Part shown: in pieces, positions 10,910 to 18,351 of the stretch
How the letters are laid out: every line of letters begins with the position of its first letter
Position numbering within the stretch: position 1 is the first letter of the stretch
Origin: Pseudarthrobacter phenanthrenivorans Sphe3
GTDB taxonomy: Bacteria > Actinomycetota > Actinomycetes > Actinomycetales > Micrococcaceae
Reading direction: 5' to 3'
DNA length: 64,000 nucleotides
NCBI RefSeq assembly: GCF_000189535.1
Contig: NC_015145.1
Location: 2,976,001-3,040,000 of the forward strand
Translations under genes and position numbers: made by a program
The notes under the pieces: generated by a model
The model's input: only the letters and a program-made list of their open reading frames with translations
Told to the model about the DNA's origin: nothing
Database searches by the model: none

Positions 10910-10970
10910 GGCGTTTCTCACCGGCGGGTTCAAGGGGTCGTTGCAACACCTGAGTGATTGGGGTGTTGTT

Positions 10971-11689
10971 GTGGGTTTTGGTCGGCCTGAGCTGTTGCAG
11001 TCGGTGGTGCGGGTTTTCTGGGAGGCGCGGTCTTCTGGGGCATCTGATGAGGTGGCGGCGGCGGTGGCCGGTATGTCCCTGTCTGCGGCCAGGTTGATCG
11101 TCCGTCAGCATGGTGGGGTGGATCCTGCGAAGAAGCCCCCGTACGGGCGGTTCCTGTCCTTCGATGAGCGCGAGTTGATCGCTGTGTGGCGGGCGGCCGG
11201 GTGCGGCGTGCGGGAGATCGGCCGGCGTTTGGGCCGGAACCCGTCCACTGTCAGCAGGGAGCTGGGCAGGAACATCCGGAACGGGGGCAACCGTCCGTAC
11301 CTGGCGTCCTCGGCGCAGAACCGTGCGCAGAAGCTGGCGCGCAGGCCTAAGGCACGGAAGCTGGCTTTCAACGAGGCCCTGGCGCTTTACGTCGCCGGAA
11401 TGCTGACGGCGCGGGAACGGTTGTCCCCGGAGCAGATCAGCGCCCGGCTGCGGATTGATTTCCCCGATGATGAAAGCATGCGCATCAGCCCGGAGACTAT
11501 CTATCAGTGCATCTACATCCAGGGCCGCGGCGGGCTGAGAGCCGAGCTCGCTGCTGCTCTGCGCACCGGCCGGGCCGTGCGGCAGCCAAACCGGCGCGCG
11601 GGCATGCGAAGGCCCCGGGTCCCGCAAGAGTTGCTGATCAGTGAACGCCCCGCGGAAGCCGATGACCGGGCAGTGCCCGGGCACTGGGA
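10971..11689 (+). pseudogene. IS30 transposase, N-terminal part
   Basis: About 240 residues with helix-turn-helix segments (GASDEVAAAVAGMSLSAARL; VREIGRRLGRNPSTVSREL) that bind the IS ends, followed by the start of the DDE catalytic domain up to AVPGHWE. The frame then runs into IS110 DNA and stops at 11717. The remaining catalytic domain continues at 15294. GTG 10971 is the likely start; a TTG inside the inverted repeat (10941) is the alternative. Confidence 0.88.
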
Positions 11690-11704
11690 ATCTCAATGTT
11701 TCTG

Positions 11705-12907
11705 TCAAGCCGCCTGAGCGGTGATGCGTGGCATTGGTTCCTGGTAGATGGTGTGGTCACGGAGCATCGCCCAGAGGACGTTGATGCGACGTCTGGCGAG
11801 GGCGATGAGGGCCTGTTTATGCGACTTTCCTTCTCCGCGCTTCCGGTCGTAATAGGTTCTTGAGGCCGCGCTGTTCTTCAAGCTGGAGAGGGCGGCGAGG
11901 TAACAGGTCCGCAGGAGCCTGCGGTTAAAGCGACGTGGTCGGTGCAGGTTCCCGCTGATTCGTCCGGAATCGCGCGGGACGGGAGCCAGCCCCGCGACGC
12001 TGGCGAGCCGGTCGACTGAGTCAAACGCGTCCAGGTTGCCGCCGATGTTCGCGAGAAAAGTAGCTGCGAGTACGGGGCCGAAGCCCGGCATGGTGAGCAA
12101 AACATCGGCGCTGTCGTGCTTCCCGAACAGGTCCGTGATCTGGGCATCGATGCCGGCGATCTCCGCATCGAGAGTGCTGATTTGCCCGGCCAGCCGGACG
12201 ACCAGGGCAGAGCCTGTGGTCTGAGTTGGCAGTACGGTGTGCTGGGAGTTTGCGGCTATCAGTGCCTTCTCTGCCATCTTGGCACTATTGCGGCAGCCGC
12301 GTTTCCTCAGCCAACCGGTGAGCCGAGCTAGTCCGATCCGCCGGATGCCCTCGGGTGTCTGGTAGCCGCCCAGGAGGACCAGGGGCGCCTGTTTGGAGTA
12401 GTCGAACGCACGCTCGAGAGCCGGGAAATATTCCAGCAAGGTGGCGCGGAGCCTGTTGATCGCCCGGACACGGTCGCAGATCAGATCCGTACGGCGGGCG
12501 GTGAGGAGCCGCAGGTCAACGCTGATCTGGTCCGTGCGGCGGACTGGTTGGAGGTCCGTGCGCATCCGTGCCTGGTCAGCGATGATCCTGGCATCTTTCG
12601 CGTCGGTCTTGCCATCTCCGCGGTAGGTCTCCGCAGCGTGATGCACGATCCGTCCAGGTATATAGAGCAGTTGCTGGGCGTGCGCGGCCAACAACTCGAT
12701 CAACAGGGCCGCTCCGCCGGAATTCAGATCCGTGGCCCAGCAGACTTCGCCCCCGGCCGCGATCTCCGCGATCGTGGCTATGAGTTCGAGCACTGCGTTT
12801 TCGTCGTTCTCGACCCGTTTCGAGAGCAGCACGGTCCCCGTCTGATCGATCACGACGCAATGATGTGCTCTTTTGCCTGAGTCGATTCCTACCCAGAATG
12901 CCGGCAT
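11705..12907 (-). CDS. IS110-family DEDD transposase/recombinase (element A)
   Basis: About 400 residues. The N-terminal RuvC-like DEDD domain begins FWVGIDSGKRAHHCVV (D9) and includes TDAKDARIIADQAR. The C-terminal Tnp20 domain has TMPGFGPVLAATFLANIGG and the serine-bearing DSGRISG segment. IS110 recombinases work with a bridge RNA that pairs with target and donor DNA. ATG 12907 is preferred over an earlier in-frame start because it has GAAGGAGACTGAAC upstream and the extension reads into IS21 DNA. The gene is intact, but IS21 now lies 45 bp upstream and cuts it off from the RNA-coding end. Confidence 0.93.
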   Translation of the reverse strand: MPAFWVGIDSGKRAHHCVVIDQTGTVLLSKRVENDENAVLELIATIAEIAAGGEVCWATDLNSGGAALLIELLAAHAQQLLYIPGRIVHHAAETYRGDGKTDAKDARIIADQARMRTDLQPVRRTDQISVDLRLLTARRTDLICDRVRAINRLRATLLEYFPALERAFDYSKQAPLVLLGGYQTPEGIRRIGLARLTGWLRKRGCRNSAKMAEKALIAANSQHTVLPTQTTGSALVVRLAGQISTLDAEIAGIDAQITDLFGKHDSADVLLTMPGFGPVLAATFLANIGGNLDAFDSVDRLASVAGLAPVPRDSGRISGNLHRPRRFNRRLLRTCYLAALSSLKNSAASRTYYDRKRGEGKSHKQALIALARRRINVLWAMLRDHTIYQEPMPRITAQAA

Positions 12908-13014
12908 GTTCAGTCTCCTTCGATCAGCTCCAATTTCGGTTGGCCCTGTCGTGTCAGCGACGGTCGAAAACTGAGCCATTTCGTGGGTTGAAAAGTGAGC
13001 CACGTTGACGTTGG

Positions 13015-15020
<2,006 letters not shown>

Positions 15021-15097
15021 CCACCCAATCGTTTGGAACGGGTGGCTCAGTTTTCAACCGTCACTATGGCTCAGTTTTCGACCGTCACCGACATGTC

Positions 15098-15236
15098 GAT
15101 AACTACGCCGGCACGTCCTTACCCAACGATCAATGTCGTAATTCTCAATCAGCGGTCGAGTCATCGGCGGGCAGCGGGCGGCCATTCCCAGTGAGCCATC
15201 CAAGCGGCAGGGCGACCTAGGCCATACCCGCCACCC
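15098..15236 (-). ncRNA. Candidate IS110 bridge RNA (element A)
   Basis: Read on the minus strand, this is the non-coding end upstream of the transposase. First stem-loop: arms 15227-15236 / 15169-15178 (GGGUGGCGGG with CCCGCUGCCC, including G-U pairs), extended by GGCC/GGCC (15220-15223 / 15180-15183). Its loop holds TCGCCCT (complement of 15209-15215), identical to the left half of the IS30 target, and CACTGGGA (15186-15193), complementary to the right half. Second stem-loop: GATGACT/AGTTATC (15159-15165 / 15098-15104). It holds ATTGAGA (15143-15149), identical to the element's right end (11691-11697), and GTAAGGA (15116-15122), complementary to its left end (15287-15293). This is the target-loop/donor-loop layout known for IS110 bridge RNAs. 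Exact ends are unknown. Confidence 0.72.
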
Positions 15237-15293
15237 GAGGGTGATCGAAACACTACGACAGCTCCGAAATCACCCACAACAAAATCGTAAGGA

Positions 15294-15753
15294 GGGCGAT
15301 CTGATCATCGGTACCCCTGGCGCCGGGGCGATCGGAACCCTCGTGGAACGCAGTAGCCGTTTCGTGATGCTCCTGCACCTGCCTAACGGACATACCGGCG
15401 AGCAGGTGCTGGCCGCCATCGAGGCAACCCTTCCGACCCTGCCGGCCCAGCTGCGCCGGTCCCTGACCTGGGACCAAGGCGCTGAGATGGTCGGCATTCA
15501 CGAACGCGTCAGGATCGCCACCGGCGCCGAGGTCTACTTCTGCGATCCTCACTCACCCTGGCAACGCGGCACGAACGAGAACACCAACGGACTCCTGCGA
15601 CAGTACTTCCCCAAAGGCATGGACCTCACCACCGTCACCCGCGCAGACCTCGACTACGCTGCCGCAGGACTCAACGGACGCCTACGCAAAACCCTCGGCT
15701 GGAAAACACCCGCACAAGCCCTCCAGCAAATACTGGAAGAATCAGCAGCATAG
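15294..15753 (+). pseudogene. IS30 transposase, C-terminal part
   Basis: Continues the split IS30 gene from the final base of the Glu codon: GDLIIGTPGAGAIGTLVERSS, then SLTWDQGAEM and NENTNGLLRQYFPKG, which carry the catalytic D, D and E of the IS30 DDE domain. It ends at TAG 15753, just before the right inverted repeat. There is no independent start; it is non-functional unless IS110 excises precisely. Confidence 0.9.
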
Positions 15754-15874: not shown

Positions 15875-16364
15875 ATGGGTGCACGTAGTTCTTTGTCTGA
15901 GGTCCAGCGTGAGGCGGCGGTAGCGTGGTTTGAGAAGGGGTGTTGGGTATCGGGCTGCGGCTCGTTTGCTTGATGCGCCGTGGGTGCCGGTCAGGGCACT
16001 GTATGGGCGGTGGAGGATTCAGGGGCAAGGAGTGCTGGTGAGCAAACCGGCGAAGTCGTACTCGTTTGAGTTCAAGCTGGCGTTGGTGGAGCGGTTCCTC
16101 GCGGGTGAGACCGGCCCGGACCTGGCTGTGGAGGCCGGTTTGTCCTCGCGTCAGTTGCTGCAAAAGTGGGTCCGGGCGTATCGCCGTGATGGTGCGGAGG
16201 GATTGCGTCCCAAGGCCAAGGGCAGGCCTGCGAAGTCCGCGGCTCCACCTGAACGGGTCGAGTTATCCGAACTGGAACGGTTGCGGCGGGAGAACGAGCG
16301 GCTCCGCGCGGAGGTGGCGTATCTGGGAAAACTGCGGGCCTTGAGGGATCAGGAACGACGGTGA
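15875..16364 (+). pseudogene. IS3-family orfA, frameshifted
   Basis: From ATG 15875 the frame reads MGARSSLSEVQREAAVAWFEKG and then breaks. The continuation VGYRAAARLLDAPWV is one frame away, so one extra base lies near 15937-15942 (AGAAGGGGTGTTGG). The rest has a second helix-turn-helix region (SRQLLQKWVRAYRRDG) and a leucine-zipper segment (ELERLRRENERLRAEVAYL), typical of OrfA. Functional OrfA is therefore doubtful unless a later GTG is used (VSKPAKSYSFEFKLAL). Confidence 0.82.
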
Positions 16365-16933
16365 AGGTCCAGTCCGTCGTTTCCCTCAAGGCTGACTACC
16401 CTCTCCCGGTCCTGCTGGAGATCGCGGGCCTGGCCCGCTCGACGTTCTTCTATCACCAGGCCCGTCTTCAGGTCCCGGACCCGAAAGAGAAACTCAAAGC
16501 GGCCGTCACGGAGATCTTTGAGACGAACCATGGCCGGTACGGGCACCGGCGGATCCATGCGGAGCTACTCAAGCAAGGGTGGACGGTTGCGAAGAAGACC
16601 GTGCTGAAACTGATGCGCTCACTGCAGCTGCTCTGCAGGATCCGGCGCCGGAAGCGCTACAACTCTTACCAAGGCGAACAGGGCAGGATTGCCCCGAACC
16701 TGCTGAACCGGCAGTTCCAGGCCGATGCCCCGAACCAGAAGTGGGTGACCGACGTGACCGAATTCAGCGTCGGGGACCGCAAGCTCTACCTTTCCCCGGT
16801 GATGGACCTCTTCGACCGGCAGATCATTTCCCATGCCATCAGCACGTCCCCGAACCTGGCTCTGACGAACGCTTCGCTGAAGGAGGCTCTGGCCTGCCTC
16901 GAGCCCGGCCAGCAGCCACTGGTGCATTCGGAC
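16361..16933 (+). pseudogene. IS3-family orfB (transposase catalytic subunit), N-terminal part
   Basis: The GTG start overlaps the orfA stop by 4 bp. It has the HTH_21 region (HGRYGHRRIHAELLKQG) and the first catalytic aspartate in QKWVTDVTEF. It is cut in the second motif, LVHSD, where IS110 element B begins. The open frame beyond 16933 to 16963 is IS110 sequence. The C-terminal part is at 18352-18633. Confidence 0.92.
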
Positions 16934-17225
16934 AGTGAGACTGTCGGAACCGGTATTCCCTGAGGATCCTTGACTCGCAGGGTGATGGATGCGACAGGAT
17001 GCTGGTGCCGGGTGCGCCCAGGGTTCTTGACCCTCACTCCGATCGACAGCTGTGTCTTTCCCCGGATCTGTCAGTCCCCAGGCGTACCCAGTGAGGCGCT
17101 AGGCCTCGCCGCCGGAGTGACCTAAGGAGAGCCTGCGCCAAGTGTGCTCATCACTGTCTTGTCCGCCGGTGGTCGATGCCCGGGGCCGTGCCCCTTGCAC
17201 ATCGGATGGACCGGAGGAAAACGAC
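16934..17225 (+). ncRNA. Non-coding end of IS110 element B, possible bridge RNA locus
   Basis: 292 bp upstream of the transposase with several short inverted repeats. CTAAGGAGAGCCT (17122-17134) matches the element's right end at 18338-18350 in 11 of 13 positions, as expected for a left donor guide. TCACTG (17151-17156) is complementary to CAGTGA at the left junction, as expected for a right donor guide. I could not find a convincing target loop for the IS3 site. Type and location rest mainly on the IS110 family rule. Confidence 0.4.
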
Positions 17226-18335
17226 ATGACCAGAACGCCCGAAACCAGCGAGCCGGACCAGGCACCGACGCCCGTCTTCGCCGGCGTCGACACGCACAAA
17301 GAACTCCACGTCGCCGCCGTCATCGATGCCGGCGAGACAGTGCTGGGCACTAAGAGCTTCCCGACAACACGCACCGGCTACCGGGCAATGCTCGCCTGGA
17401 TCGGCGATTTCGGTGACTTGGCCCGGATCGGTGTCGAGGGCACCGGATCCTATGGTGCCGGCCTGACCCGACACCTTGCCAAAGCCGGTGTCATGATCCT
17501 TGAGGTCGACCGGCCCGACCGGTCTGACCGCCGCCGTAAAGGCAAGGACGACGATCTGGACGCAATCAATGCAGCCCGCGCCGCACTGCATGGCCGACGC
17601 ACCAGCATCCCAAAAAGCAAGGACGGCGCCGTCGAAGCTCTGCGCGTGCTGCGCATCACCCGCGCGCACGCGGTCCGGGAGCGCCGCAGCGCCCTGCAAC
17701 TCCTTCGGATGTCGATCGTCTCCGCGCCGGAGGTGCTTCGCGACCAAGTCCGCCACCTGACCCGGATGCAGCTCATCCGCACCCTCGCTGCATGGCGGCC
17801 GGACGTATCAAACGCGACCGACCCCATCACCGCCTACCGGGTCTCGATGAAGTCCCTGGCCCGCCGCTACCTGGAACTCACCGACGAGATAACCGACCTG
17901 GACGAGCTCATCAACCCCATCGTCCAAGCCCTCGCACCCCAACTCCTCGAACGCGTCGGAATCGGCATCGAAGTCGCTGGACAGTTCCTCGTAACGGCCG
18001 GTGACAACCCCGAGCGGATGAAATCCGAAGCCGCATTCGCGATGCTCTGCGGCGCTTCACCCCTACCCGCGTCCTCCGGAATGACACAACGGCACCGACT
18101 CAACCGCGGCGGCGACCGCCAAGCCAACCGCGCCCTGCACCTCGCCGTCATCAGCCGGATCAGGCTCGACCCGAGAACGCAGACGTACGTCGCGAAAAAG
18201 ACCGCCGAGGGGCACTCCAAGATGGAGATCATCCGCTGCCTGAAGCGATACCTCGCCCGAGAGGTCTACTTCATCCTCAACCCCGGCCACCAGCACATCG
18301 TCCCGAACACCAGGCAACACCGAAACGCCGCTTGA
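17226..18335 (+). CDS. IS110-family DEDD transposase/recombinase (element B)
   Basis: 369 residues. DEDD domain: VFAGVDTHKELHVAAV, VEGTGSYGAGLTRHL and KDDDLDAINAARAAL. Tnp20 domain: MKSEAAFAMLCGASPLPASSG with the conserved serine region, and LNRGGDRQANRALHLA. ATG 17226 has GGAGGAAAACGAC upstream and is preferred over in-frame starts to 17142. It is clearly diverged from element A's transposase, so the two copies are independent arrivals. The gene looks intact. Confidence 0.94.
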   Translation: MTRTPETSEPDQAPTPVFAGVDTHKELHVAAVIDAGETVLGTKSFPTTRTGYRAMLAWIGDFGDLARIGVEGTGSYGAGLTRHLAKAGVMILEVDRPDRSDRRRKGKDDDLDAINAARAALHGRRTSIPKSKDGAVEALRVLRITRAHAVRERRSALQLLRMSIVSAPEVLRDQVRHLTRMQLIRTLAAWRPDVSNATDPITAYRVSMKSLARRYLELTDEITDLDELINPIVQALAPQLLERVGIGIEVAGQFLVTAGDNPERMKSEAAFAMLCGASPLPASSGMTQRHRLNRGGDRQANRALHLAVISRIRLDPRTQTYVAKKTAEGHSKMEIIRCLKRYLAREVYFILNPGHQHIVPNTRQHRNAA

Positions 18336-18351
18336 CACTTAGGAGAGCATC

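Follow-up and report, generated by a model that had tools for sequence, protein, structure and literature searches.

How does an insertion sequence come to lie, exactly and in frame, within the transposase gene of another transposon, and is the address of that insertion written in a noncoding RNA of its own? The question is raised by a locus of Pseudarthrobacter phenanthrenivorans Sphe3 (contig NC_015145.1, positions 2,976,001 to 3,040,000). This stretch of 64,000 nucleotides is called the window below, and coordinates are counted from its first letter. Here an IS110-group element interrupts an IS30-family transposase gene. The best explanation, which we hold with high confidence, is that this IS110-group insertion sequence makes a bridge RNA whose target guides are programmed to the codons of the HWEGD motif of IS30 transposases. 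An earlier note on this DNA had read a bridge RNA, with a target loop followed by a donor loop, in the left end of the element, and our analysis supports that reading. The recognition that the target site is the HWEGD motif of IS30 transposases throughout a whole clade of elements goes beyond it. Sequence comparison shows the guides, the fold, the covariation, the target and the precision of insertion.

Anatomy of the element

11690 to 15293, minus strand: IS110-group element, identical to 10 intact copies in the genome apart from a nested IS21-type element
11705 to 12907, minus strand: IS110 recombinase gene, 400 amino acids plus stop (DEDD_Tnp_IS110, Transposase_20, NF033542)
12952 to 15093, minus strand: IS21-type element (istA, istB), 2142 bp, nested between the RNA and the recombinase gene
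15094 to 15293, minus strand: left-end noncoding region, read as bridge RNA with support from a covariance model and from structure
10941 to 11689, plus strand: N-terminal half of an IS30-family transposase gene, ending at codons H-W-E (HTH_38; NF033563 positions 1-139, locus L163)
15294 to 15753, plus strand: C-terminal half of the same IS30 transposase gene, from codons G-D (rve; NF033563 positions 137-267, locus L149)

At the level of domain matches, the recombinase consists of a RuvC-like DEDD domain (PF01548, E 3.2e-48) and a Transposase_20 domain (PF02371, E 2.1e-18), and it scores well above the NCBIfam cut-off for IS110 RNA-guided transposases (NF033542, 240 bits against 140). The noncoding ends of the element are unequal, with about 238 nt ahead of the start codon on the left and about 15 nt past the stop on the right. 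A long left end combined with a short right end is the pattern of the IS110 group, and the reverse is that of IS1111. An assignment to the IS1111 group, which is marked by an RNA in the right end and by long sub-terminal inverted repeats, was considered and rejected, as the RNA sits in the left end. The recombinase (11708 to 12907) also gives a sub-threshold match to a TIGR-Tas endonuclease model (42 bits, cut-off 100), a family whose relation to IS110 has reportedly been published.

The IS21-type insertion is flanked by a 5-bp duplication, TGTCG, at 12947 to 12951 and 15094 to 15098. Because it adjoins the RNA directly behind, the RNA is whole, yet its distance to the recombinase gene has grown by 2.1 kb. 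Since the RNA and the recombinase gene are separated in this way, the window copy probably needs one of the 10 identical intact copies in order to move. The element length of 1458 bp used below refers to the slice without the nested IS21 and takes in one base of the right core. Extra DNA of about 1.1-1.4 kb between the RNA and the right end is also seen in same-clade loci (L032/L176, L175 and L109).

Four guides and their partners

15209 to 15218, minus strand: left target guide AGGUCGCCCU, 9 Watson-Crick pairs and 1 G-U pair with the left target
15186 to 15193, minus strand: right target guide CACUGGGA, 8 of 8 Watson-Crick pairs with TCCCAGTG
15143 to 15149, minus strand: left donor guide AUUGAGA, identical to the right end at 11697-11691
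15116 to 15122, minus strand: right donor guide GUAAGGA, complementary to the left end at 15293-15287
15291 to 15293, minus strand: left copy of the shared TCC (core region)
11687 to 11689, minus strand: right copy of the shared TCC (core region)

The guides described in the earlier note are all present on the minus strand. In the first loop, the left guide TCGCCCT (15215-15209) can be extended to AGGTCGCCCT (15218-15209), and the right guide CACTGGGA (15193-15186) pairs with the right flank; in the second loop, ATTGAGA (15149-15143) and GTAAGGA (15122-15116) match the ends of the element itself. Their partners are the left flank CAGATCGCCC (15303-15294) and the right flank TCCCAGTG (11689-11682) on the side of the target, and the right end CATTGAGAT (11698-11690) and the left end TCCTTAC (15293-15287) on the side of the donor. 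The match of 11 in 13 positions previously counted around the left guide holds against the re-joined target, and the triplet common to both junctions is indeed TCC, present as GGA in the right guides. Loop order and strand polarity are as published, the first loop pairing with the target and the second with the element's own ends.

Shuffled sequences, which had been named as a possible source of equally good four-guide matches, failed to reproduce them. With positions left free outside the first 12 nt of the RNA, the four queries at their best together match 31 of 34 letters, a value reached by none of 20,000 dinucleotide shuffles of the RNA (maximum 29), with query lengths (10, 8, 8 and 8 nt) that were picked after the match was seen. 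Single guides are less striking, as 141, 42, 955 and 751 of 20,000 shuffles match as well.

Fold and occurrence of the RNA

In 22 close relatives, the RNA region folds into two stem-loops with large internal loops, comprising 33 pairs with 98.9% of the cells paired and changes on both sides at 6 pairs; for pairing as for covariation, 0 of 500 shuffles did as well. In an alignment of 62 model-aligned matches, 93.8% of the cells pair and 15 pairs have changed on both sides (again 0 of 500 shuffles), although this alignment leans towards the model because it was fitted to it. The check by covariance model suggested in the earlier note was carried out with a model built here, and it matches 58 of the 59 relatives given, 3 of them weakly (42-51 bits). 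Its match in the window extends from 15293 to 15093, with 245.7 bits and an E-value of 3.6e-71. The sole miss of the 59 is L014, a relative in the same genome with 36% identity, which gave no match to this model. In an Rfam scan of the window, no bridge-RNA family reached its gathering score and tRNA alone passed the threshold. The fold energy of the single sequence is likewise unremarkable (z -1.34).

The HWEGD codons of IS30 transposases as target

When the two flanks in the window are joined, HWEGD is restored in frame. The Asp of this motif may be read as the first catalytic Asp of the IS30 transposase, because the 57 residues counted on the sequence between it and the Asp of TWDQG fit the published spacing of IS30 transposases, D-(54-61)-D-(33)-E (PMC2516522).

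Beyond the window, 46 distinct flank pairs were gathered by the RNA motif, leaving out pairs with an unplaced end. Four of them belong to other lineages (L061, L065/L123, L073 and L120), and the remaining 42 constitute the clade, which is bounded at about 67% recombinase identity or more. HWEGD is restored in frame in 33 of the 42 clade pairs, where the IS30 gene was recognised outside the own genome by the motif and its surrounding residues and a profile search was applied within it. The same protein context with a small lesion is found in 3 of 42 (L023, L031 and L111), and another 3 (L035, L039 and L080, the last in an Acidimicrobiaceae bin) have IS30 context on the left flank only, which suggests later rearrangement or one-ended events. 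In the last 3 of the 42 (L001, L005 and L106), the insertion lies elsewhere. The hosts with the full motif include Arthrobacter, Rhodococcus, Kocuria, Mycolicibacterium, Haloechinothrix, Microbacterium, Tessaracoccus, Cryobacterium and Subtercola, and one target is kept over about 30% recombinase divergence in this IS110 clade. As these 33 pairs restore the reading frame exactly, insertion appears to be conservative, with no target duplication beyond the core, L005 being the exception.

With the own genome counted in each sample, 39 of the 198 genomes sampled from the genus have a recombinase matching with an E-value of 1e-100 or better; at a limit of 1e-170, the count is 6 of 395 for the family and 3 of 394 for the class. 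A plasmid search returned 184 records with similar DNA.

Copies in the Pseudarthrobacter genome

The genome holds 12 copies of the element: 10 are identical over 1458 bp, one has a single inserted base and the window copy carries the IS21. The earlier note had stated that the same loops at unrelated targets would speak against its reading; among these 12 insertions, ten lie in IS30 transposases, at matching targets, whereas L001 and L005 lie at poorer ones and count against perfect specificity. The IS30 flanks fall into five types, of which four are clearly diverged. The left guide forms 9 Watson-Crick pairs and 1 G-U pair with types 1, 1b and 2, and 7 Watson-Crick pairs, 2 G-U pairs and 1 mismatch with types 3 and 4. 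These G-U pairs fall at third codon positions of IS30, and the right guide pairs at 7 or 8 of its 8 positions.

A search of this genome with the IS30 profile recovered N-terminal and C-terminal halves, 10 of each. Every N-terminal half stops at model position 139. Among the C-terminal halves, nine begin at 137, and for the remaining one (L154) the match sets in at 172, with HWEGD at its junction. Two more IS30 fragments do not cover the motif (L156, positions 185-260; L167, positions 157-239). Each of the 10 IS30 transposases found here with the motif is therefore occupied and split at it, and no uninterrupted one was found by this profile search. Empty target sites were also sought by sequence: there is no exact match to AGRTCNCCYTCCCARTG in the own genome, and its matches with 1-2 mismatches are at chance level, since they number 16 against 23 for the reversed control.

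Of the two off-target copies, L001 is found in a CoA-transferase family III gene and L005 in a glycosyltransferase-like gene. At these sites the right guide pairs at 6 and 7 of 8 positions, respectively, and the left guide is poor in register; at L001, AGGTCGCC is present one base nearer the core. The insertion at L001 was conservative, because four empty-site orthologues align with it without a gap, and the same gapless alignment rules out a 1-nt deletion that had been considered there. L005 (C1:778571-779770) shows a 7-nt duplication, CCCAATG; the single empty orthologue recovered, at 84% identity, does not have it, and such a duplication is not expected of a conservative IS110 mechanism.

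Covariation of guides and insertion sites

If the loops determine the site, relatives inserted elsewhere should carry other loops, as the earlier note had anticipated, and in such relatives the target loops do match their sites. For relatives below 67% recombinase identity (n=19), agreement between the left guide and its own target averages 7.05 of 10 positions, against 5.27 with the targets of others; for the right guide the averages are 7.11 of 9 and 4.44, and in either case 0 of 50,000 permutations reached the observed value. This test takes one row per distinct target loop and drops L053 and L120 (misassigned right end) as well as L080 (66.98%). A less filtered run of 27 rows, which took in these three loci (L080 being otherwise counted with the clade), gave 7.19 against 5.33 for the left guide and 6.70 against 4.51 for the right one, with 0 of 20,000 permutations each. 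Thirteen loci, L012 and many loci without one or both ends were left out before the permutation tests; the 27-row run also dropped rows with an anchor score >6, a left end outside the expected distance or a cut flank. For the 27-row and within-clade tests 67 rows were kept, 59 of them distinct, and some supportive-looking rows were among those dropped (L089, L096 and L100). The permutation keeps the relatedness among rows, so that kinship would have to shift both loops and both flanks together.

A corresponding test on 32 rows from inside the IS30-aimed clade detected no covariation of guide and site, as 2,630 and 9,916 of 20,000 permutations reach the observed values. This silence is as expected, because the target is constant.

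Two groups of diverged relatives have recurrent sites of their own. L043-L047, L050, L051 and L073 lie between a Shine-Dalgarno-like sequence and a start codon, and their guides match these sites. IS900-like elements target the Shine-Dalgarno sequence and the start codon, and these distant relatives look alike, for instance with AGGGGGA..CATG read in the other direction; compared with the window element, they stand at about 62-63% recombinase identity and follow another target programme. In an Arthrobacter lineage (62-65% identity), the insertions follow a recurring sequence of the TTGCTGCTG type that the left guide matches (e.g., L112, L114-L122, L124, L125, L127 and L129); some of these loci share a similar GC-rich upstream sequence, perhaps a repeat.

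Alternative explanations

The matches in the RNA might be read as chance, a kind of pareidolia in GC-rich sequence, and single donor-guide matches are indeed reached by 4-5% of the shuffles. However, the joint match is reached by none of the 20,000, and the guides covary with their targets in relatives, so that we consider the probability of this explanation to be almost nil. It is also highly improbable that recognition of the IS30 site is due to the recombinase protein by itself, with the matches in the left end arising secondarily, through common ancestry or because the recombinase binds a sequence there. Within the IS30-aimed clade such recognition would look much the same, as guides and target are both nearly constant there and covariation is silent. 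In diverged relatives, in contrast, both loops change with the insertion site while the fold is kept by compensatory changes. Furthermore, the RNA region is indispensable to ISEc21, which also belongs to the IS110 family (PMC11187229), and the IS621 recombinase binds its RNA (PMC11208160).

The number of independent events behind the ten IS30-borne copies is a separate matter. They could descend from a few IS110 insertions that were then spread by IS30 transposition, and it is in line with this idea that five copies, that of the window included, share the same IS30 type and junction and that IS30 ends flank those five at different sites. This explanation nevertheless seems unlikely to us, given that the element is carried by the five flank types described above, four of them clearly diverged, and that no uninterrupted IS30 transposase was found in this genome to mobilise the copies. 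Moreover, over about 1250 nt the type-1 IS30 copies show 0-4 differences to the reference copy L187, whereas the IS110 inside is without substitution (ten copies identical over 1458 nt, the others set apart by one base or by the IS21). Since several diverged IS30 types are occupied, repeated insertion directed by the guides is more likely than passenger spread of some copies or gene conversion among the IS110 copies.

Proposed mechanism and promoter-like junction site

11703 to 11708, minus strand: TTGACA, -35-like half of a promoter-like site that forms only when the right and left ends abut
15284 to 15289, minus strand: TACGAT, -10-like half of the same junction site

Under the bridge-RNA reading, the first loop would pair with the target DNA, using the left guide AGGUCGCCCU on the bottom strand and the right guide CACUGGGA on the top strand, and the second loop would pair with the abutted ends of the element itself. 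At the TCC region that both share, the recombinase would then join donor to target in a conservative reaction. As the target guides are programmed to the HWEGD codons, insertion would take place there in one orientation, splitting the IS30 gene just ahead of the presumed first catalytic Asp. If the element were excised as a circle, its two ends would be brought together and thereby create a promoter-like site, TTGACA-N17-TACGAT, for the RNA and the recombinase. For the expression and binding of the RNA, the formation of circles and the chemistry of strand exchange, this scheme draws by analogy on published relatives.

The abutted ends do give TTGACA-N17-TACGAT in the window element, and TTGACA with a 17-nt spacer and a TAnnnT hexamer occurs in 31 of 35 distinct end pairs (4 of the 35 from other lineages). 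Integrated flanks served as the comparison, and the best promoter-like score of the integrated flank plus left end is lower in every computable pair. The junction site is thus a consensus match and a predicted promoter-like site, which agrees with the reported circle-junction promoter of ISEc21 (PMC11187229).

Comparison with known systems

The bridge RNAs of IS621 and the IS110 group (Durrant 2024, PMC11208160; Hiraizumi 2024, PMC11208158) have the same layout as the one described here, a left-end RNA with a 5' stem-loop followed by the target loop and then the donor loop. In IS621 as in our element, the 5' side of the loop pairs with the bottom strand and the 3' side with the top strand (PMC11208160). 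In contrast, the IS621 core is CT and the core region here is TCC, and, unlike in IS621, the target here, as read from the sequence, is an IS30 protein-coding motif (PMC11208160). ISEc21 (Siddiquee 2024, PMC11187229) is likewise an IS110-family element with an upstream noncoding RNA and a target in the catalytic-Asp codons of the DDE transposase of another family; its insertion without duplication and its promoter at the abutted ends have counterparts here that are both read from the DNA. The two differ in where they insert, as ISEc21 goes to the second-Asp region of certain IS3-family members and the element studied here to the HWEGD of IS30, presumably the first Asp.

The window contains a second element of this family, which has an ISEc21-like target:

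16936 to 18350, plus strand: second IS110-family element, boundaries approximate, with its recombinase at 17142-18335
16361 to 16963, plus strand: open frame with the N-terminal part of an IS3-type transposase, broken at V-H-S-D (HTH_21, rve)

At all 8 loci fetched, three in the own genome (window copy included) and five in four relatives, this second element lies in the H-S-D motif of an IS3-type transposase, with H-S-D running up to the left end and (R/Q)G-x-Q-(F/Y) following past the right end. Because the reported sites of ISEc21 are codons for the second Asp in certain IS3 transposases (PMC11187229), the second element repeats a published kind of target in another host group.

The mechanism, the type of RNA and one case aimed at a catalytic motif (ISEc21) are therefore already known (Durrant 2024; Siddiquee 2024). 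ISAar29 and ISKrh6 are named elements in the IS110 literature, and ISAar29 is drawn there as a bridge-RNA element, one of six in Extended Data Fig. 10c (Durrant 2024, PMC11208160). If ISAar29 belongs to the IS30-aimed clade, its bridge RNA and target may already have been drawn. The name presumably hints at an Arthrobacter host. In the accessible parts of the open-licence literature, IS30 was not found described as the target of any IS110 element or clade.

As the guide-matched site codes for what is presumably the IS30 active site, the element mostly lands in its rivals and breaks them. We tentatively suggest, giving the idea somewhat less than an even chance, that IS110 elements follow a recurrent and stable strategy of directing their bridge RNAs at catalytic codons of other transposases, and that separate lineages have adopted it for the first Asp of IS30 (in several actinobacterial genera) and the second Asp of IS3 (the second element and ISEc21). 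If so, the target would be hard to mutate away without loss of the rival's own activity, and an invader could fill and silence all the rival copies of a genome and so serve, guided by its RNA, to suppress other transposons. The constant protein-motif target, together with the occupation of 10 of 10 IS30 transposases, makes this locus a testable case of RNA-guided parasitism of one transposon on another. These insertions also offer natural data on guide mismatches, with G-U pairs at third codon positions and, in the off-target copies L001 and L005, a right guide that is better kept than the left.
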